Assembly (NCBI RefSeq): GCF_001466665.1
Contig: NZ_KQ758903.1
Coordinates: 1,299,684-1,363,683, forward strand
Direction: 5' to 3'
Origin: Dehalogenimonas alkenigignens
GTDB taxonomy: Bacteria; Chloroflexota; Dehalococcoidia; Dehalococcoidales; Dehalococcoidaceae
DNA length: 64,000 nucleotides
Under the pieces are notes generated by a model. The model made no database searches. It saw only the letters and a list, made by a program, of their open reading frames with translations, and had not been told where the DNA came from. Each line of letters begins with the position of its first letter. Position 1 is the first letter of the stretch. The position numbers and the translations under genes were made by a program. Shown here one piece after another: positions 6,576 to 24,060 of this stretch.

Positions 6576-8834
6576 TCAGACCTTGAGCTTGGCTTCGGCT
6601 TTGGCGATGATCTCCCGGGTGGTGCCGATCATATCAGGGCTTACGGAGACCGATGTAATACCCCATTCCATCAATTTTTCGGTTAGTTCCGGGTATACCG
6701 ATGGCGCCTGGCCGCAGATTGACGAGGTGATCCCTTTACGTTTAGCGGTTTTTACCGCGATCTCAAGAGCGGCCATGACCGCTTCATTGCGTTCGTCAAA
6801 GGTATCCTGGAGTTTTTCACTGTCACGGTCAATACCAAGCGTTAACTGGGTCAGATCGTTGGAGCCGATGGAGATGCCGTCGATGCCGACGTCAATAAAC
6901 TTTTCCATCAAGAAGATATTCGCCGGAACTTCAGTCATCATCCACAATTTGAAGTCCGGACCGCGTCGTAATCCTTCTGCTTCAAGTATGTCTTTGGTGC
7001 GCCGTAATTCTTCCACGGTACGTACGAACGGAATCATCACCCAAAGATTGGGAAAGTCCTTACGCACCCGTTTAATGGCCTCTATCTCCATTTTGAAGGA
7101 CTCGATATCCCGGATATAGCGCGAAGCACCTCGATAGCCTATCATCGGGTTTTCTTCAGGCAGTTCGTATTTGTCGCCGCCTTCAAGTTCACGATATTCG
7201 TTGGTTTTAAAGTCGGTAGTCCGGTAAACTACCGGCCTCGGGTGAAAGGCCTTGGCGAACGGTACAATCCCCTCGTAGAGCTTCTGGATGAACTCTTCAC
7301 GCCTTCCGCTCTCAAGCATATAGCTCGGATGCTTGCCGATGCACGAGATAATGAATTCGGCTCTGAGCAGGCCGACCCCGTCAACATTGCGGGCAGCTAC
7401 CATATCCGCCAGTTCCGGTTGAGCCAGGTTTACATAAACACGGGTTTTGGTCTTGATGGCGTCGCGAACGAGGCTGGTTACGGAAGCTGTCTGGATTCGG
7501 CGGGTAACTTTACCGTTGTATATTTTACCGTGCGAACCATCAACAGTAATGACCTGTTCATCATGAAGGACCTTGGTTGCCTCATGGGTGCCTACCACGC
7601 ACGGTATGCCGAGTTCACGGCTCACAATCGCAGCGTGTGAGGTGCGCCCGCCTCGATTGGTGACAATGGCGGCGGCCCTTTTCATGGCTGGAACGAAATC
7701 CGGAGTGGTCATTTCAGCCACAAGGATATCGCCGGAATCAACGCGGTGGATTTCCGAAGGGTTCATGAGTATTTTCACCGTACCCGAGGCTAAACCGGGA
7801 CTCGCGGGAGAGCCTTCAAGGATACTTGGCTCTTTTATTTCCGCCTCCTCCTCGAGTGCCTGCTCCTTGATAGCTGTTACCGGGCGCGATTGAACAATGT
7901 AAATAGTACCGTTTTCTTTGGCCCACTCGATATCCTGGGGTACGCCGTAGTGCTTTTCGATGTGAACAGCCAATTCAGCTAGATGAATGATATCCTCATC
8001 GGGCAGTTTCTGCTGTTCTTGTTTAGCTGAGGGCACCTGCTGCCAATAGTTGGCTGTTTCTCCAGAGCCGGCGGAATTGCGTACCAGACGGCGGTCCTGG
8101 AAACTGATTCTCCGGGATAGAATGGTTGGTCCATCCTTGGAGACGATAAACAAATCAGGATTAATTTCGCCGGAAACCAATCCTTCGCCAAGGCCGTAGA
8201 TCACCTCGATGACGATCTTGGACGGGTCGTGTGTAATGGGCTCAATGGTAAAAATAACACCGGAAGTCACCGACTGAACCATCCGTTGCACCGGAACGGC
8301 GATGCCGACCTTAAAGTGATCATAATTCTGTTCCTGACGGTAATAGATAGCCCGCGCTTCGAAAAGCGACGCCCAGCATTTCTGCACCGCATGGACTACC
8401 ATTTCCCAGCCTTCTTGATTCAAATAGGTACTCTGCTGACCGGCGAAAGAAGCCTCCGGAAGGTCTTCAGCGGTAGCCGAAGAGCGGACGGCGACTGCCC
8501 CCCCGCCGAGTTGTGCGTAAGCTTTGCTGATTTGGCCAGCAAGCTGATCAGGCAGAGGAGTGCCCATGATCAGGTCTTTAACTTTTTGAGAAGCCGTGGA
8601 GAGCGCTTTTGAATCTTCAACATCCAGTCCTTTAAGAAGGGCTCGGATCTTAGGTTGAAGATCGGAGTTTTCAATAAAATCAAAATAAGCAGCTGAAGTA
8701 ACGATAAAGCCTGGGGGGACTGGGATTTTTGCCCTGGTCATCTCGCCGAGATTTGCGCCTTTCCCGCCGACCAGGGGAATGTCCTGTTTGTCAACCTGGT
8801 CGAACCAGACAATCGCTTCCGGCTTATTTTGCAT
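6576..8834 (-). CDS. ppsA: Phosphoenolpyruvate synthase (pyruvate, water dikinase)
   Basis: Converts pyruvate, ATP and water to PEP, AMP and phosphate, the gluconeogenic entry needed by an acetate-assimilating anaerobe. The N-terminal ATP-grasp domain begins IVWFDQVDKQDIPLVGGKGANLGE (described in parts: WFDQVDK, then VGGKGANLGE). The swivelling phosphohistidine domain carries GGRTSHAAIVSRELGIP, and the C-terminal PEP/pyruvate barrel ends with GICGQ-like SICGQAPS. The frame is open upstream to 8987, but the ATG at 8834 has an AAAGGAGA ribosome site 8 nt away and begins where the family begins, so the upstream 51 codons are excluded. The protein has 752 aa. It is monocistronic, with its own terminator. 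Confidence 0.95.
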   Translation of the reverse strand: MQNKPEAIVWFDQVDKQDIPLVGGKGANLGEMTRAKIPVPPGFIVTSAAYFDFIENSDLQPKIRALLKGLDVEDSKALSTASQKVKDLIMGTPLPDQLAGQISKAYAQLGGGAVAVRSSATAEDLPEASFAGQQSTYLNQEGWEMVVHAVQKCWASLFEARAIYYRQEQNYDHFKVGIAVPVQRMVQSVTSGVIFTIEPITHDPSKIVIEVIYGLGEGLVSGEINPDLFIVSKDGPTILSRRISFQDRRLVRNSAGSGETANYWQQVPSAKQEQQKLPDEDIIHLAELAVHIEKHYGVPQDIEWAKENGTIYIVQSRPVTAIKEQALEEEAEIKEPSILEGSPASPGLASGTVKILMNPSEIHRVDSGDILVAEMTTPDFVPAMKRAAAIVTNRGGRTSHAAIVSRELGIPCVVGTHEATKVLHDEQVITVDGSHGKIYNGKVTRRIQTASVTSLVRDAIKTKTRVYVNLAQPELADMVAARNVDGVGLLRAEFIISCIGKHPSYMLESGRREEFIQKLYEGIVPFAKAFHPRPVVYRTTDFKTNEYRELEGGDKYELPEENPMIGYRGASRYIRDIESFKMEIEAIKRVRKDFPNLWVMIPFVRTVEELRRTKDILEAEGLRRGPDFKLWMMTEVPANIFLMEKFIDVGIDGISIGSNDLTQLTLGIDRDSEKLQDTFDERNEAVMAALEIAVKTAKRKGITSSICGQAPSVYPELTEKLMEWGITSVSVSPDMIGTTREIIAKAEAKLKV

Positions 8835-13825: not shown

Positions 13826-14965
13826 ATGAGCAAAGTCAAAGTGGGGATAAACGGCTACGGAGTGATCGGTAAAAGGGTAGCTGATGCGATATTACTGCAA
13901 GATGACATGGAACTGACTGGAGTAACCGCGGTTAACGCCGATTACCGGATCCGAGTTGCCGCCGAAAAAGGCTATTCTATTTTCGCCGCGACCGAAAGCC
14001 GACAATCAATGATGAAAGAAGCCGGAATTCCGGTTGAAGGCTCACTTAAAGATTTACTTAAGAAAGTAGACGTTATCATCGACTGCACGCCGAAAGGCAT
14101 TGGGGCGGAGCAAAAACCTATCTATGAATACGCCCGTGTTAAAGCGGTTTTTCAAGGCGCCGAAAGGCATGAACTGACCGGCATATCGTTTGTGGCCCAG
14201 GTTAATTATGAAGAAGCTTTAAATAAGCAGTTCGCACGTGTTGTATCCTGTAATACGACGGCGTTATGCCGGGTATTGAACTCATTCAATAAACGAAGCT
14301 GGTTGAAGCGAGTCAGAGCTGTGCTGCTCAGACGCGGAACGGATCCCTGGGAAAGCCACCGCGACGGTATGATCAATACGTTCATACCTGAGACTAAAGT
14401 TCCAAGCCATCAGGGGCCAGACGCCCGGACGGTCATTAAGGGACTGGATATAACTACTATGGCCGGAGCCTGTTCACATAATCTCAGTCACGTTCATTAC
14501 GCCATGGTCGAAACCAAACGTCCGATCGGGCTTGACGAGTTGAGATATGCATTGTGGGAGGAGCCAAGGCTGGCATTTGTCCGGTCAAGCAATGGGTTGG
14601 TTGCCCTAAACTCGGTAATTGAACTGATGAGAGACCTGGGACGACCGCGCAACGATATGTGGGAAGTGGCGGTATGGGAAGATGCCCTCGCGGCAGACGA
14701 GCGGGAAACCTACCTGGTATTTCAGGTTCATAATGAGGCCATTACGGTACCCGAAAATATCGATGCCATACGCTCGCTTTGCGGTCTCGAAAAAGACGGC
14801 GCCAAATCAATCGCAAAAACCGACAAGGCTATGGGCATACTCAAATGTTTCTTGCCCAAAACAATACCCGAAGCCGCCGTTCACGCCGAAATAGGAGCGG
14901 CTTTAAAGTTAGAGCGCCGCGAGTTCATCGAGGAAGGTTACAAGGGCGCCGAAGAACCTTTTTGA
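13826..14965 (+). CDS. gap: Type II (archaeal-type) glyceraldehyde-3-phosphate dehydrogenase
   Basis: Predicted phosphorylating GAPDH, interconverting glyceraldehyde 3-phosphate and 1,3-bisphosphoglycerate. The N-terminus has the dinucleotide fold GINGYGVIGKRVADA. The active-site cysteine is C142 in SCNTTALCR, and the later histidine-containing stretch is HNLSHVHYAM. These are features of the archaeal type II family, not of the usual bacterial type I (which has SCTTN). At 379 aa it exceeds the usual roughly 340 aa, through a C-terminal extension rich in Lys, Glu and Ala. It is a single-gene unit convergent with the histidine kinase gene. Cofactor choice (NADP or NAD) cannot be read directly. 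Confidence 0.9.
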   Translation: MSKVKVGINGYGVIGKRVADAILLQDDMELTGVTAVNADYRIRVAAEKGYSIFAATESRQSMMKEAGIPVEGSLKDLLKKVDVIIDCTPKGIGAEQKPIYEYARVKAVFQGAERHELTGISFVAQVNYEEALNKQFARVVSCNTTALCRVLNSFNKRSWLKRVRAVLLRRGTDPWESHRDGMINTFIPETKVPSHQGPDARTVIKGLDITTMAGACSHNLSHVHYAMVETKRPIGLDELRYALWEEPRLAFVRSSNGLVALNSVIELMRDLGRPRNDMWEVAVWEDALAADERETYLVFQVHNEAITVPENIDAIRSLCGLEKDGAKSIAKTDKAMGILKCFLPKTIPEAAVHAEIGAALKLERREFIEEGYKGAEEPF

Positions 14966-15005: not shown

Positions 15006-18000
15006 TCAAATTCGGCCTTTAACATCGTTCAGGGTCTGGGAGACCGCGAGGGCGAGTGCTGCCGGCTCAAAGGGTTTCACCAGACTGGGTAGACGGTGCT
15101 TTTCCAGGAACATTTTGACATCTTCACCCAGGGTATCGCCGGTGATAATTACGATACGTCCAGTCATTTCCGGCCGGCGGTCAATAATCTCGGTGTAAAG
15201 CGCCATGCCGCTTGTCCCGGGCAATCGAAGATCCATGACGATAACATCGTAGTCTTTTTTGCTTAGTAGAATCAGTGCTTGCGCGGCTGAAGCCGCGGTG
15301 TCAATGTGCCGACCTTCCCCGGAAAGAGATTCAACCGCCAGGTTGCGTATGCACTCCTCGTCGTCTATCACCAAGATAACGGCCGCTGATTGATGTCCGA
15401 GGTTGATGACACTTGGGTCACGAGTTTCGGCTGCCGCACCGGAGGATTGAACAATAGGCAACAGGATGGTGAAAGCAGCCCCGCAGCCGGGAGACGATTC
15501 CACCTCCAGAGTGCCGCCGTGTTCCTCAACGATTGAACGTGAAAGCGATAACCCCAGACCGGTGCCTTCGCCGGGATTTTTGGTGGTGAAGAACGGCTGG
15601 AAAATCTTTGTGACAGTTATGTTGTCGATTCCAGGACCGGAATCGGCGAAAACCAACCTGAGATATTTCCCCTCCAAAGCGGCGGTGATGGTGAGTTTCC
15701 CTGGCTTGCCACTATGCTTGATGGCATATTCGGCATTGACGATGAGATTCAGGATAACCTGCTGCATCTGGCCCGGATCAACGATTATCCACGGTAAATT
15801 TTCAGAATAATTTTTAACAACCTCGATGCCAGCAGTCTTCAATACGTATGCCCTGAGTTCGAGAGTATTATCTATCAGCTCAGTAATATCCACGCGCGAT
15901 TTCAAAGGTTTGGTTTGGTGGGCAAAGGTCAGCATTCTTTTGACGATTTCGGCCACTCTTCTGGAGCCATCAACGATAACTTTCAAGTCGTCAGCGACTT
16001 CCGGCGCCAGATCGCTGCGGGCAAGCAACAACTCTGAAAAACCAAGGACACCGGTGAGGGGATTGTTAATCTCATGGGCAATTCCGGCGGCCATTTCGCC
16101 GACGGCAGCCAGGCGGCTGGACAACTCGGCTTTTTCTTTTAACCGCTGTTGTTCAGCTTCGGCCTTTTTAATGGCAGTGATGTCGCGGGCGATATGGACG
16201 TATCTCCCGCTGGATTTACCGCCAATTTTGATAGGAGTGATGTTGACCTGATAGGTATTATCACCCTGAACGATCTCATCACCCAAACCGCACCGATTCC
16301 GGTCGCCGAGGCCAGGACAAAAGCCGGGCAAGACACAGGTATCGTGCATTATTTGATAACACTTTTTACCTACCGCCTCGGCCGGAAGCATTCCGGTCTT
16401 GTCGGCCATGGAACGGTTGACGCGGATAATGTTATGGTCCTTATCCAAAATACAAATCAGGTCAGGTATGGAGTCAAAAGTGCTTTCCCACTCCTGTTTT
16501 GCAATTAAGATTGCCTGATCATTCTTGCGGCGTTCTAAGATATCACGTTCAGCGATCAGCAGTCCCCGTAATGATACTGCGGCTACCGATGTGAGCGAAC
16601 GGATGAGGAAATGATCGCTGTTCGAGAACTCCTGACGGCTTGCTTTATCCGAAAGGAACAAAACGCCAACGGTCTTGCCGGCGGCCGTGAGCGGAATCAT
16701 ATAAGCAACATCTTTTGAGCCCACAACGTTAGGATATTCCGTCGAAGGCGTTCTCCGTTTAACAAAATCCATCAATTCAAATTCAAACGCTCTATCAGCG
16801 TAAACACCTCGCGCGGCGGCGAATACAAAACTTGTTTCATCAGTAGCTACAAATAGGCAGGCGCCTGATAGGTTCATGGATGTCATCGGGGCGTCGATGA
16901 TCAATGAGGAAGCCACCTCAACGCTAGCTGTTGCGCTGAGCGATGCGCTCAAGGTTTGAATTATTTGCTGGTAGTCATGACGGTCTTTGTAGAAGAATTT
17001 ATCAACCAATGCTTCTGTGGCGCTTCTGGCTGGGCCTAAGAGAAGAACCGCTATAGCTGAAAGGAATAAGGCCAGGATGAATTGCTGAGTGAAACCTGGA
17101 GCGACTCCACCTGATAATACCAATGCAAAAACACCGGCAAGGACCGCAGCCATCGATAGAGTGATAAGACCGTACACAACTCCTCTTCGAACCACCACAT
17201 CAATATTCATCAATTGGCGCGCGATGACGGCATAACCGAGAGACAGTGGTATGAACGACAGGAAGGCTACCGTAATATTTGACTGTAGAAATACACTGTC
17301 ATCCTGAACCCCAGGGAAGACACTGAACACCAAAAAAGGTAGCAAAGCAGCCATGCATCCTAAAAGGATGATGACCATTTGCTGCCTGGTCCGCGAATCC
17401 GCTGCTCTTAAGAGATTGAATACTACGACACCTATAACACCCAAGAAACCGACGCCGTATCCGATCAGCCTGAAGGTCCGAAAATCCGGGAGAGGCTGCC
17501 CATTCGACTGCCCAATGAATGGATATGCAATCACAATCAACGCCGGCAAAACATAAACCAGGTATTGGTAGGGCTTATGTCTCAACCAGGCGCGCTCCTG
17601 GGGGAGAATCAAAAAGAAGTGGAGCAGCAGCCAGGGGCCGATGGTAGACGCAACAACGGTGATATGCAAAGCCAATGGGGCCAGACGATCCGAAGCCATA
17701 TTCGAACTGAGAGCCAGTCCGAACACAAGACCGCAGGCCAACAAAAGTACCGACGCCTCGTTTTTCGGATTACGGAGATAAACATAAATTCCGACAACCC
17801 AAAACGCAAGGCAAGGAAGAAGCCACATGACGAGGTCTATTGTCGCGGTTGAAGTAGGTTGAGTCAGAGATGAATCCGCATCAAGTATTGTGCCATTAGG
17901 ATTTACCACAGTAATTTGGCGAACTACTCTGATCCAACCTGAATCTTTAAAAGCTGACAAATATTGATCAGCCGGCAGTCCATCGATGATTAATGGAATA

Positions 18001-18206
18001 TCTCCCGGGGCGATACCTAGTTCATTACCGATCCCATATGGATCCACGCTCTCAACAACCCATTGTTCATTATCATTTTTGAGGGAAATGCCAATGTAGG
18101 AGTGACTAAAGCTATAAACAAAATAAAAAGCCGATATAATTAGCACGAAAACCGAGAAAACAATCGGGAGACGGTACAGGTTGAATTGAAGGCGGGCGTT
18201 ATTCAT
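15006..18206 (-). CDS. Membrane hybrid histidine kinase with ComP-like N-terminus (PDZ-like, multi-TM, GAF, PAS, HisKA, HATPase, REC)
   Basis: Sensor kinase of 1066 aa, likely the receptor of the adjoining peptide system. TM1 spans residues about 13-33 and is followed by an extracytoplasmic PDZ-like segment (about 45-105, with GIAPGDIPLIIDG). About seven to eight membrane helices fill residues 122-392, ending in the stretch IARQLMNIDVVVRRGVVYGL. A GAF domain (about 415-555) and a Cys-rich PAS domain (570-685, with KCYQIMHDTC) follow. HisKA has H711 in GIAHEINNP, and HATPase has GTGLGLSLS (about 881-889). A REC domain with D992 ends the protein. The start overlaps the prenyltransferase stop by 8 nt (ATGAATAA), so translation is coupled. 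The PDZ-plus-multi-TM layout resembles ComP; the HisKA class and fused REC differ from ComP. No DNA-binding response regulator lies nearby. Confidence 0.9.
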   Translation of the reverse strand: MNNARLQFNLYRLPIVFSVFVLIISAFYFVYSFSHSYIGISLKNDNEQWVVESVDPYGIGNELGIAPGDIPLIIDGLPADQYLSAFKDSGWIRVVRQITVVNPNGTILDADSSLTQPTSTATIDLVMWLLPCLAFWVVGIYVYLRNPKNEASVLLLACGLVFGLALSSNMASDRLAPLALHITVVASTIGPWLLLHFFLILPQERAWLRHKPYQYLVYVLPALIVIAYPFIGQSNGQPLPDFRTFRLIGYGVGFLGVIGVVVFNLLRAADSRTRQQMVIILLGCMAALLPFLVFSVFPGVQDDSVFLQSNITVAFLSFIPLSLGYAVIARQLMNIDVVVRRGVVYGLITLSMAAVLAGVFALVLSGGVAPGFTQQFILALFLSAIAVLLLGPARSATEALVDKFFYKDRHDYQQIIQTLSASLSATASVEVASSLIIDAPMTSMNLSGACLFVATDETSFVFAAARGVYADRAFEFELMDFVKRRTPSTEYPNVVGSKDVAYMIPLTAAGKTVGVLFLSDKASRQEFSNSDHFLIRSLTSVAAVSLRGLLIAERDILERRKNDQAILIAKQEWESTFDSIPDLICILDKDHNIIRVNRSMADKTGMLPAEAVGKKCYQIMHDTCVLPGFCPGLGDRNRCGLGDEIVQGDNTYQVNITPIKIGGKSSGRYVHIARDITAIKKAEAEQQRLKEKAELSSRLAAVGEMAAGIAHEINNPLTGVLGFSELLLARSDLAPEVADDLKVIVDGSRRVAEIVKRMLTFAHQTKPLKSRVDITELIDNTLELRAYVLKTAGIEVVKNYSENLPWIIVDPGQMQQVILNLIVNAEYAIKHSGKPGKLTITAALEGKYLRLVFADSGPGIDNITVTKIFQPFFTTKNPGEGTGLGLSLSRSIVEEHGGTLEVESSPGCGAAFTILLPIVQSSGAAAETRDPSVINLGHQSAAVILVIDDEECIRNLAVESLSGEGRHIDTAASAAQALILLSKKDYDVIVMDLRLPGTSGMALYTEIIDRRPEMTGRIVIITGDTLGEDVKMFLEKHRLPSLVKPFEPAALALAVSQTLNDVKGRI

Positions 18207-19173
18207 TGAAACCAGCCATATTCAGAAAAGGTGATAGGAGGCTAATATTTACTTTACTCGGAGGCAAAGATTCTAACTGATCGATAGCCAGATGGATGAA
18301 TTTTTGAGCTTGAAGAAGGGTATAATGTACCCCCCCTGATTGAAATAATACCCGCTTCACCGGTTCAGGGTCATCTGTGACAGGGGTGCCGGCATCATAG
18401 GTGCAGTCGATGTAATTGGATTGATCACGAAGGGACCCGTTCCTTGCGAATATCACAGGTAAAGTGACTTTTTTACCGCAGATATCTTTTCCCGTGGTAA
18501 TATCACGAATATCATTACACAGTTGTAACGCTGTTCCAACATACTTCCCGAAATCCGCGAAAGAAGTGATTACTCCTGGATCATTTGTCGAAAGAATGGC
18601 GCCAATATGGCAGGCACATTGGATTTGAGACGCTGAAGTTTTTTGGATATGGGCGATATATGCTGTCTCATCAAAACAAGAACGCAACGAACCGGATAAA
18701 TCTTCGTGTTGCCCGCTGGAAGACTGAATAAAATATCCAGTTAACGTTTCGAGGGCAGAATGAAATATTTGGTACGAAACGAGGTTATTCATTCGAGCGA
18801 AAGCAGCGTATGCGAGCAATATCAGAGTAGAGCCGATATTCATCCGGACGGGTTTGCTTAGGCCGGTAAAACCAGTGAGGATAGTGTCGTCATCTTCTAG
18901 ATCGTCGAATATATCGGCCGCTGTCAGCATGAACTGCATTGCGGCAGCGAAAGGTAAAGCATGTGTCCATTCGCCGTTTATGCTCTGGGCAACATACAAA
19001 GGCAACAATGGCCATTGATTATTGTCTGATGATGTTCCTAAAACTCTTCCTTCAACGGCCAGTGGTGCTCTTATATGAGAGATAAATTCAGTGTTATTAG
19101 AATAAGGAGCTAGAATTGCTTCTAGCTCCTTATTTAGGGCTATACTTTTAATAACTAAGCCGCCCCGATCCAT
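18199..19173 (-). CDS. Polyprenyl-synthetase-like protein, candidate ComQ-type peptide isoprenyl transferase
   Basis: Divergent all-helical isoprenyl-diphosphate synthase fold. The first Asp-rich motif is DDLEDDD within TAADIFDDLEDDD (about residues 90-96). The second is NDIRD (about 220-224), followed by GKKVTLPVIFA. Isoprenyl synthases would normally show DDxxD twice, and ComQ proteins show a similarly degenerate second motif. It lies directly after a 69-aa peptide gene with a C-terminal Trp and before a ComP-like kinase, so peptide prenylation is the best reading. The ATG at 19173 is preferred. A GTG at 19200 would extend it by 9 codons and overlap the peptide gene by 10 nt. Alternative: a small-molecule prenyl diphosphate synthase. 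Low-GC codon use, by eye, contrasts with gap. Confidence 0.82.
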   Translation of the reverse strand: MDRGGLVIKSIALNKELEAILAPYSNNTEFISHIRAPLAVEGRVLGTSSDNNQWPLLPLYVAQSINGEWTHALPFAAAMQFMLTAADIFDDLEDDDTILTGFTGLSKPVRMNIGSTLILLAYAAFARMNNLVSYQIFHSALETLTGYFIQSSSGQHEDLSGSLRSCFDETAYIAHIQKTSASQIQCACHIGAILSTNDPGVITSFADFGKYVGTALQLCNDIRDITTGKDICGKKVTLPVIFARNGSLRDQSNYIDCTYDAGTPVTDDPEPVKRVLFQSGGVHYTLLQAQKFIHLAIDQLESLPPSKVNISLLSPFLNMAGFNE

Positions 19174-19190
19174 AATTGAAAGATACCTTG

Positions 19191-19400
19191 TTAAAACCAC
19201 CCACCCATGGGTCCAATTTGCGACTGGAGAGAAACGCCATCAGCGGTGACAAGGCCCGTACGCGCATGCAAGGAAAGGACTGCCTTTTTATCAACCGGGG
19301 TAAGTTCCAGTTTGGCGACATACGCCTCGGGATCAGCTTCGAAATCCTTGCGGGCGGACTCATCTCTGAATATGGTCTGGACTAAATCGGCCAAGTTCAT
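19191..19400 (-). CDS. 69-aa candidate ComX-like pheromone precursor peptide
   Basis: Small gene at the head of the operon, with a strong AAGGAGGAG ribosome site 5 nt before the ATG and a near-perfect promoter upstream. The N-terminal 50 residues look like a recognition leader (MNLADLVQTIF, then FEADPEAYVAKLELTP, helical and charged). The last 19 residues are small and polar and end GPMGGWF. W68 is the only tryptophan and lies next to the C-terminus. ComX pheromones likewise carry a single modified Trp within a few residues of the C-terminus. The leader also recalls LigA-like sequences found in some peptide precursors. Function is inferred from context with the prenyltransferase and kinase genes; the match to ComX itself is by pattern, not alignment. 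Confidence 0.8.
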   Translation of the reverse strand: MNLADLVQTIFRDESARKDFEADPEAYVAKLELTPVDKKAVLSLHARTGLVTADGVSLQSQIGPMGGWF

Positions 19401-19405
19401 AACAA

Positions 19406-19461
19406 CTCCTCCTTAATTAATTTTAGTTACGGATTATAAACTCAGAATGTCAACACGTCAA
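19406..19461 (-). promoter_or_regulatory. Promoter and ribosome site of the ComX-like operon
   Basis: On minus: TTGACG (complement of 19456-19461), 17-nt spacer, perfect TATAAT (complement of 19433-19438), then AAGGAGGAG (complement of 19406-19414) 5 nt before the ATG. Among the strongest signals in the window, implying high expression of the peptide gene. Confidence 0.85.
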
Positions 19462-22198: not shown

Positions 22199-23134
22199 AT
22201 GAATGAAACCGCAGTCTACGAACACCTCACAACCGAACTAAAGTCAATCAATTGCATGCATGGATTTCTGGAAATCAGAAGAGTTCCGGAATTGAAACGG
22301 GAACTCGAATCCCGGTTGCATAAAGGCCAACTTGATACTGCTTTCTTTGTAAAAAATCTTGAACGGCTGGAGGTTTCAGCGCCGACCCGTTTTGCCGAAG
22401 TCAACTCACTCATAATTATTGCCGCGCCTTTACCGCTCACGAGGTTGATTTTCGAATATCAGGGCAGAGGTCGGCCGGTACAAATTCCTCCCTTTTATGT
22501 TTTCAAAGATAAATTGGCAGCTATCCGAAAAGCGCTTGGACGAAGTTTAGGTGCCGCTGGGTATCAAATCGCAGACGCCCGGGTACCTTTGAAGTTAGCG
22601 GCGATACGCAGCGGCCTGGCACGTTACGGGAGAAACAACCTGGCTTACATCCAGGGGATGGGCAGCTTCCATAGATTGGTAGCATTTTATACCGATTTAC
22701 CCGCACCGGCCGACGCCTGGTTTCGACTCAGTGAGATGGAAGAATGCACCAGTTGCGGCTTTTGTTTAGGTAACTGTCATACTGATTGCCTTAATCCCGA
22801 TGCAGGCAACCGTTTTCTTGCACGAGCTGAAAAGTGTCTAACTCTTTACAATGAAGAACCGGGAGAACTGCCGAGTTGGATCACGCCCTGGCTCCACAAC
22901 TCCTTGATAGGCTGCATGCGCTGCCAATCCAGTTGCCCTTTGAACCGGACCTTTATACGAAATGTTCCGATTTCTGACACGTTTAACGAACCGGAAGCTA
23001 TGGCAATATTAGCGACGCCGGTATTCGGCGACCTTCCAGGAGCCCTCCAGGAGAAGTTAGTTAAGTATGATCTTCAAGACTACTATGACCTGGTGCCGCG
23101 GAACCTCAAATTCCTGCTGGAGTGGGAACTGTGA
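22199..23134 (+). CDS. QueG-like double-[4Fe-4S] cluster protein (copy 1)
   Basis: A 311-aa iron-sulfur protein of the epoxyqueuosine-reductase-like group. The C-terminal half carries CTSCGFCLGNC, an isolated AEKC, and CMRCQSSCP, the ligand set for two [4Fe-4S] clusters, also used by reductive dehalogenases. The N-terminal half is the less conserved QueG-like fold with the stretch LAYIQGMGSFHRL. A true QueG needs cobalamin and specific substrate residues that I cannot confirm, so queuosine synthesis is not claimed. It is a tandem paralogue of the next gene, overlapping it by GTGA. tRNA-Leu lies immediately upstream. Confidence 0.83.
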   Translation: MNETAVYEHLTTELKSINCMHGFLEIRRVPELKRELESRLHKGQLDTAFFVKNLERLEVSAPTRFAEVNSLIIIAAPLPLTRLIFEYQGRGRPVQIPPFYVFKDKLAAIRKALGRSLGAAGYQIADARVPLKLAAIRSGLARYGRNNLAYIQGMGSFHRLVAFYTDLPAPADAWFRLSEMEECTSCGFCLGNCHTDCLNPDAGNRFLARAEKCLTLYNEEPGELPSWITPWLHNSLIGCMRCQSSCPLNRTFIRNVPISDTFNEPEAMAILATPVFGDLPGALQEKLVKYDLQDYYDLVPRNLKFLLEWEL

Positions 23135-24060
23135 TTTCCACATTGGCAGAAAAGGTGACGGATGAGCTGGAGCTTTCCGGCTATCGCGCGGCTAACGCAA
23201 GCATTGACCGACTGGCTACCATTGAACAAGAATTCCGTTCCATAGCCAACCGTGATGAATGGCGCAAATCTCCTCACCTTTCACAGCACATATTCGATTT
23301 CACTTTACCCCAAGAATATCAAGCTAAATCGATACTCGTCGTTGCAGCACCGGTCGCACCGGTTAATATCGGTTTCGTATTTGGTGGGGAATATTTTTCC
23401 TTCGATGCTCCTCCTTTGTCAGAAGACTATGAACAAGATGCCGCCAATATTTTTTCTGAGATTAAGAAGATAATCTCGCCGCAGGGATATCGCCTGTCCG
23501 AGTCCAATTTACCCACCAAGATTCTTGCCAGCCACTGCGGATTAATTTCCAACGGCGTCAACAATATTGGCTACATAGACGGGATGGGCAGCTATTTTCG
23601 GTTGAGCGCGTATTTTTCGGACATTGAACCAGGAAATGAAAAATGGCTAAATAACCACTCGGTGAACCCCAAATGCGCCGGGTGCTCAAGGTGCATCGAC
23701 ACCTGCCCAACAAAATGCATCGAGCGCTCCTCTTTTCAAGTAAACCGGTGCCTTTCACTTCTTTCAAAGGAACCTACCGATTTTCCGGTTTGGATAAACA
23801 GTAAATGGCATAATGCATTAATAGGATGCCGGATTTGCCAAAAAGTTTGTCCACTAAATCAGGAGGTTTCGTTTAAGGCGAGCATCGGCGCTGATTTCGA
23901 TGAAACTGAAACCGCGGCAATCCTTTCAGGTGAGCCTCTGGAAAATCTCTGTTCTAAAACCAGAGAAAAACTGCGATACTTCACTCTGGAGCCATTGTAC
24001 CCTGTGGTATCGCGCAATTTACGCTTATTGTTCAAAAAACATGGACTGACAGTAAATTGA
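23131..24060 (+). CDS. QueG-like double-[4Fe-4S] cluster protein (copy 2)
   Basis: A 309-aa paralogue of the preceding protein. It shares GYIDGMGSYFRLSAYFSD in the middle, and the cluster motifs CAGCSRCIDTCPTKC, NRC and CRICQKVCPLN. The GTG at 23131 is preferred over a GTG at 23122 because GGAG lies 9 nt upstream of it and the overlap with copy 1 becomes the common GTGA. The downstream Crp/Fnr gene overlaps it in turn by TTGA, so the three are translationally coupled. Electron transfer or reduction of a small molecule is likely, but no substrate can be named. Confidence 0.83.
   Translation: MISTLAEKVTDELELSGYRAANASIDRLATIEQEFRSIANRDEWRKSPHLSQHIFDFTLPQEYQAKSILVVAAPVAPVNIGFVFGGEYFSFDAPPLSEDYEQDAANIFSEIKKIISPQGYRLSESNLPTKILASHCGLISNGVNNIGYIDGMGSYFRLSAYFSDIEPGNEKWLNNHSVNPKCAGCSRCIDTCPTKCIERSSFQVNRCLSLLSKEPTDFPVWINSKWHNALIGCRICQKVCPLNQEVSFKASIGADFDETETAAILSGEPLENLCSKTREKLRYFTLEPLYPVVSRNLRLLFKKHGLTVN

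Follow-up and report, generated by a model that had tools for sequence, protein, structure and literature searches.

The window, the whole 64,000-nucleotide stretch of DNA from Dehalogenimonas alkenigignens that was analysed, contains three adjacent and overlapping genes on one strand, which we call X, Q and P in the order in which they lie, with X first. The features of the locus are the following.

19433..19461 (-), promoter-like site TTGACG-17-TATAAT, 11 of 12 matches, the best on the strand
19406..19414 (-), strong Shine-Dalgarno sequence of X, AAGGAGGAG, 5 nt 5' of the ATG
19191..19400 (-), X, ComX/PalX-like precursor of 69 amino acids with an ATG start, sequence MNLADLVQTIFRDESARKDFEADPEAYVAKLELTPVDKKAVLSLHARTGLVTADGVSLQSQIGPMGGWF
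19257..19394 (-), leader of X, approximately residues 3-48, the tail being approximately residues 54-69
19194..19223 (-), probable core of X, the last ten residues, SQIGPMGGWF, with the candidate acceptor Trp68 at 19197..19199
18199..19200 (-), Q, ComQ-like candidate tryptophan prenyltransferase of the trans-isoprenyl-synthase type (PF00348, E 2.1e-16)
about 18892..18906 (-), FARM of Q, DDLED
about 18502..18516 (-), pseudo-SARM of Q, NDIRD
15006..18206 (-), P, ComP-like candidate receptor histidine kinase of 1066 amino acids (Pfam, hydropathy)
about 17835..18113 (-), PDZ-like loop of P after TM1, residues 32-124, between the first two TM segments
to about 17028 (-), about nine more TM helices of P after the loop, about ten in total (hydropathy)
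receiver at about 15042..15377 (-), end of the kinase half of P, which has PAS, HisKA and HATPase_c domains and then the receiver domain (Pfam)

The near-consensus promoter-like site lies about 30-60 nt upstream of X. Compared with its closest homologue X has nine codons changed synonymously and four non-synonymously (dN 0.03, dS 0.21). This mostly synonymous change, the promoter-like site, the Shine-Dalgarno sequence and the 20 homologues described below together confirm at the sequence level that X is a real open reading frame, beyond chance. The frame bears out the sequence-only reading of a 69-residue protein whose single tryptophan is second-last (residue 68 of 69); the glycine-rich tail of that reading holds for the last six to seven residues (GPMGGWF) and not for the rest of the tail. 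An AlphaFold model from the single sequence (mean pLDDT 65) places four helices in residues 3-48 and leaves the tail, residues 54-69, disordered. Mature ComX peptides are 6-10 amino acids long. The core of PalX has eight amino acids, DNVRRFFW (PMC10853753), and the probable core region of X was placed by likeness to the mature peptides of both.

The X family consists of 20 aligned members from Chloroflexota genomes, which align over their length. These homologues were taken from separate genome searches and not from contig scans; scans of genome contigs with X or with ComX168 found no match, and X homologues were absent from the phage records searched. Trp68 is kept in all 20 members, as had been predicted. 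It is the second-last residue in 15 frames, the last in one (G193) and the fifth or sixth from the end in four (G013, G034, G108 and G186), all of which have a short proline-ended extension in common. One homologue, in genome G082 (L081, X at 7262-7477, minus strand), keeps the Trp and adjoins an HTH-receiver protein, but the next 7 kb downstream lack Q and P; it is an orphan precursor.

For the comparison of conservation the leader was taken as residues 3-53 and the tail as residues 54-69 minus the Trp. Among the other members of the order the leader is 59% and the tail 33% conserved, with 20% for the last ten residues, and between the genus and the order the values are 43% and 17%. Across genera the leader is thus more conserved than the tail (permutation p 0.0002). 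Within the genus the tail is 83% and the leader 65% conserved, the four same-genus proteins having nearly one tail, so that variation of a pherotype-like kind is confined to comparisons between genera or families. The predicted pairing of a variable tail with a conserved leader therefore stands at those levels; within the genus it fails, and the result there is formally the one, a tail as conserved as the leader, that the sequence-only reading had named as refuting it.

The Pfam LigA family is matched by 18 of the 20 members; the X of the window falls just below the cut-off (25.2 bits against 25.3). Four members match Franean1_4349, a Frankia RiPP family, one matches nitrile hydratase alpha, and NH_RiPP_Os17 is matched weakly by the X leader. 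Against the PDB the X profile finds SonA and LigA-domain chains at E 0.02-0.035; the match to a better-scoring chain, 8fje, covers a short stretch only. A fold search with the X model gave weak matches with E above 1, mostly SonA. The Pfam matches and the profile match to SonA indicate a RiPP leader of the LigA/SonA/NHLP type, which upholds the earlier suggestion of a LigA-type leader. Pfam ComX (PF05952) was matched by none of the 20 members at up to E 10, nor was it found in the window's own genome, in a search whose cut-off was reached in none of 14 control genomes, B. subtilis among them. Comparison of the X profile with four ComX sequences by hhalign gave a probability of 1.8%. Pfam ComX, having no match, was dropped as a handle on the precursor. 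Small LigA-leader proteins with other tails are present in other Chloroflexota (L087, L089, L090, L091 and L092), the one in L091 having the C-terminal end AWLFWP, and these are possibly further RiPP precursor families.

Read from a GTG start, the Q frame shares 10 nt with X; it may instead begin at an ATG at 19173. ComQ requires a FARM and a pseudo-SARM of the form NDxxx or GDxxx, and changing the Asn to Asp drastically lowers its activity (PMC5331326). All 16 X-linked Q proteins that include the region have NDxxx, whereas the 46 unlinked polyprenyl synthases in the set have DDxxx in 45 cases and NDxxx in one (G205), these counts being of related sequences and not of independent events. The FARM is DDxxD in every X-linked Q except that of G186 (DEIED). 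The G205 enzyme (L102 / L124) has NDLQG at the SARM, is encoded in a dxs/isoprenoid operon with no X adjoining, and groups with canonical enzymes in the tree. The window genome encodes a second polyprenyl synthase elsewhere.

In a tree of the Chloroflexota enzymes the X-linked Q proteins form one clade (100/100). Searching plasmids with the Q of G044 by tblastn returned enzymes that adjoin annotated comX genes in Anoxybacillus, Lysinibacillus and one Stenotrophomonas record, as well as canonical synthases. The comX-adjoining plasmid enzymes have the motifs NDFDA and NDIQS, and the B. velezensis ComQ has GDYHA. The ComQ proteins of Anoxybacillus and Lysinibacillus group with the Chloroflexota X-linked Q at 100/100, also with canonical enzymes of Chloroflexota and four other phyla in the tree. 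When Priestia and B. velezensis, both with very long branches, were added the ComQ/Q split was recovered with a support of 53/67 only, and such long branches call for caution. We take the phylogeny to indicate that Q shares its ancestry with authentic Firmicutes ComQ and not with canonical synthases. The Stenotrophomonas record (L181, CP031730.1, also CP065518.1), labelled as a Stenotrophomonas rhizophila plasmid, carries a comQ-comX-kinase set very like that of a Lysinibacillus fusiformis plasmid, the two ComX sequences differing by one residue; this near-identity suggests that the record may be misassigned or contaminated.

The Pfam PDZ model is matched by 11 of 14 P homologues, though the P of the window by itself shows no match. 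Against the PDB the P profile finds PDZ domains of RseP-like proteases, DegS and DegP (E 6.5e-8); AlphaFold gave no confident model of the loop from one sequence (pLDDT 38). The receptor BaComP has ten TM helices, and the PDZ domain that separates its TM1 from its TM2 is proposed to bind ComX (PMC9620489); the predicted topology of P follows the same plan. The P sensor profile matches Anoxybacillus ComP over almost its whole length (67 bits, positions 26-396) and, with 116 bits, the Lysinibacillus-type ComP encoded in the Stenotrophomonas record. Over 914 long ORFs it reached E<=1e-3 only for X-linked P and the Anoxybacillus ComP. These profile matches indicate that the sensor region of P shares ancestry with ComP.

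The X-Q-P operon is present in about 16 Chloroflexota genomes, nearly all of them Dehalococcoidia, and X adjoins Q in nearly all complete loci. Within the genus it is found in four of eight genomes, including G004 and G005 and, in damaged form, G003. Many families of the order and class have it (G013, G034, G044, G108, G117, G143 and G144, also G146, G359, G193, G172 and G186, in the last split over two contigs), and G574 has it outside the class in the same phylum. A search for X over the order matched 17 of 156 genomes at E<=0.01, two or three of them doubtfully. No transporter, protease or immunity gene was found in the operon at the loci read. The damaged operon of G003 (L032, 5290-6440, X-forward) has an IS3-type element in Q after about residue 210 and a P without its first 39 residues, with X intact; it is a natural non-producer or a recent loss. 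In the genus member G007 (L159, 3847-8587), which is without X-Q-P, the corresponding place between the GAPDH-like gene and def is taken by other genes, regulator-like and sensor-kinase-like, which suggests that this may be a sensory locus of variable content. We dropped the GAPDH-like gene at 13826 as a partner of X-Q-P, as it is a gene in its own right whose conservation in the genus does not depend on X. Elsewhere in the window, 22199-24060 encodes a neighbouring pair of related proteins, 311 and 312 amino acids long, which have Cys-rich ferredoxin-like C-terminal motifs and resemble epoxyqueuosine reductase; they adjoin a CRP-type regulator at 24057. The genome of the window is a single contig of 1.85 Mb with 30 stretches matching reductive dehalogenases, some of which are pieces of one gene; close kin in the same family have genomes of 1.4-1.5 Mb.

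No response regulator, of the NarL-type ComA kind or any other, is linked to X-Q-P in the window. At other loci the gene just upstream of X encodes an HTH-receiver protein (G034, G082, G137 and G359) or a receiver-only protein (G044, G143, G147 and others). An HTH-receiver protein encoded elsewhere in the window genome (G000:C1:929578-930105) is 57% identical to the X-adjoining one of G034. We rejected it as the missing ComA: all genomes of the genus encode it and it also occurs in the sister genus, whether X is there or not, and a kinase of its own adjoins it, so it is not specific evidence.

We consider it very probable that X-Q-P is an operon for a ComX-type, Trp-prenylated peptide pheromone, with prenylation, processing, export and sensing all inferred from sequence. 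The layout that had been proposed, a precursor with a prenylated C-terminal Trp, gains support from the adjoining Q with its pseudo-SARM and from the ComP-like P. In the mechanism that we propose, Q would attach an isoprenyl group (C10-C20), taken from the diphosphate, to the Trp68 indole, assisted by the helical LigA-like leader. A protease would then free a short C-terminal lipopeptide of about 6-10 residues, with the end ...GPMGGWF or less, which would exit the cell. Outside the cell it may be bound by the PDZ loop and ten-TM sensor region of P, which would autophosphorylate and pass the phosphoryl group to its own receiver domain and on to an output regulator.

The same genes could make a Trp-prenylated RiPP that serves mainly some purpose other than quorum sensing, such as an antimicrobial or membrane-active peptide; P would then be no more than a feedback or immunity sensor, in the manner of lantibiotic autoinduction. 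The leader is of a general RiPP type (LigA/SonA/NHLP), PalX, the nearest NHLP-type precursor, is described simply as a RiPP (PMC10853753), and the X tail is conserved within the genus; but the operon is without transporter, protease and immunity genes at the loci read, and the linked sensor appears to share ancestry with a pheromone receptor, and we regard this alternative as unlikely. It is far harder to credit that Q makes an ordinary isoprenoid diphosphate, with X a small regulatory protein that has a LigA-like fold and stays unmodified. Q does belong to the polyprenyl synthetase superfamily and has an intact FARM, yet an NDxxx pseudo-SARM is unsuited to synthases that use IPP, the genome has a further polyprenyl synthase gene at another site, and the invariant Trp in a disordered, variable tail would be left unexplained.

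Decay of the operon, such that X is no longer modified in the window strain, would fit the interrupted Q and shortened P of G003, the presence of X-Q-P in only half of the genus genomes and the X of G082 without Q and P nearby. In the window, however, all three frames are open, P keeps the HEINNP box of the kinase and the receiver Asp, Q keeps both of its motifs, and the changes in X are mostly synonymous, which makes a relic extremely improbable here.

As a pheromone operon, X-Q-P would be a ComQXP-type system in Chloroflexota and would take prenyl-Trp pheromones beyond Firmicutes. It would also link RiPP leaders of the LigA/NHLP type with ComX systems, and the X-linked Q proteins would be new Trp prenyltransferases for a second-last Trp. 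Dehalococcoidia are used in the clean-up of chlorinated solvents, and ComX-type signalling in them is undescribed in the papers searched. A 2014 census placed comQXPA-like loci in Firmicutes only (PMC4008528). In the open-licence literature searched, ComQ/ComX systems were not found reported for Chloroflexota; a KEGG-based review says of Chloroflexi only that they hold 'the HK-RR pair', and a term search of a 2026 review of Trp prenyltransferases found no mention of Chloroflexi (PMC13290415). We suggest tentatively, as an idea that is more doubtful than not, that a LigA/NHLP RiPP precursor gave rise to ComX-type pheromones, X-Q-P and PalXQP keeping the ancestral leader while the ComX of Firmicutes became shortened and diverged. 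If so, Trp-prenyl signalling would be much older and wider than Firmicutes.

The ComQXPA system of Bacillus subtilis and other Firmicutes resembles X-Q-P in having a short precursor with a C-terminal Trp beside an enzyme gene, an adjacent trans-isoprenyl-synthase-like enzyme with a FARM and an ND/GDxxx pseudo-SARM, and a neighbouring receptor kinase that has about ten TM helices and a PDZ loop. The hosts differ, and the gene order is X-Q-P in Chloroflexota and Q-X-P-A in Firmicutes. The X leader is LigA/NHLP-like with PF05952 undetected, whereas ComX belongs to PF05952. The kinase P has PAS, HisKA and HATPase_c domains and a receiver, and ComP is of the HisKA_3 type (PF07730); ComQXPA includes the NarL-type ComA, to which the X-Q-P of the window has no linked counterpart. 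For ComQ RO-E-2 the acceptor Trp lies within the second to fourth positions from the end (PMC5331326), and the four X proteins with the Trp fifth or sixth from the end fall outside this range, for which extra C-terminal trimming or a looser enzyme has to be assumed.

SonA of the split borosins and Franean1_4349, RiPP precursors of the LigA/NHLP type, share with X a helical LigA-like leader and a disordered C-terminal core. Other enzymes act on their cores, the N-methyltransferase SonM being one example, and these systems have no known ComQ- or ComP-like component. The nearest published relative of X-Q-P in design, going by its published description, is PalXQP of Paenibacillus alvei, a RiPP system (PMC10853753). 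It has three genes, encoding a precursor with an NHLP-type leader and a conserved C-terminal Trp, a Trp prenyltransferase of the isoprene synthase superfamily and a histidine kinase, a combination that X-Q-P appears to share. PalQ acts on a strictly terminal Trp, whereas the Trp of X is mostly second-last; a further difference is that the SARM of PalQ keeps D200/D204, with the double mutant still active. As Q and the sensor of P appear homologous to ComQ and ComP, but the precursor domain, gene order, kinase and regulator differ, X-Q-P is not a canonical ComQXPA system. The LigA-leader peptide, which the sequence-only reading had thought could be a new family, is not wholly new and is better described as a variant of the ComX/PalX-type systems.
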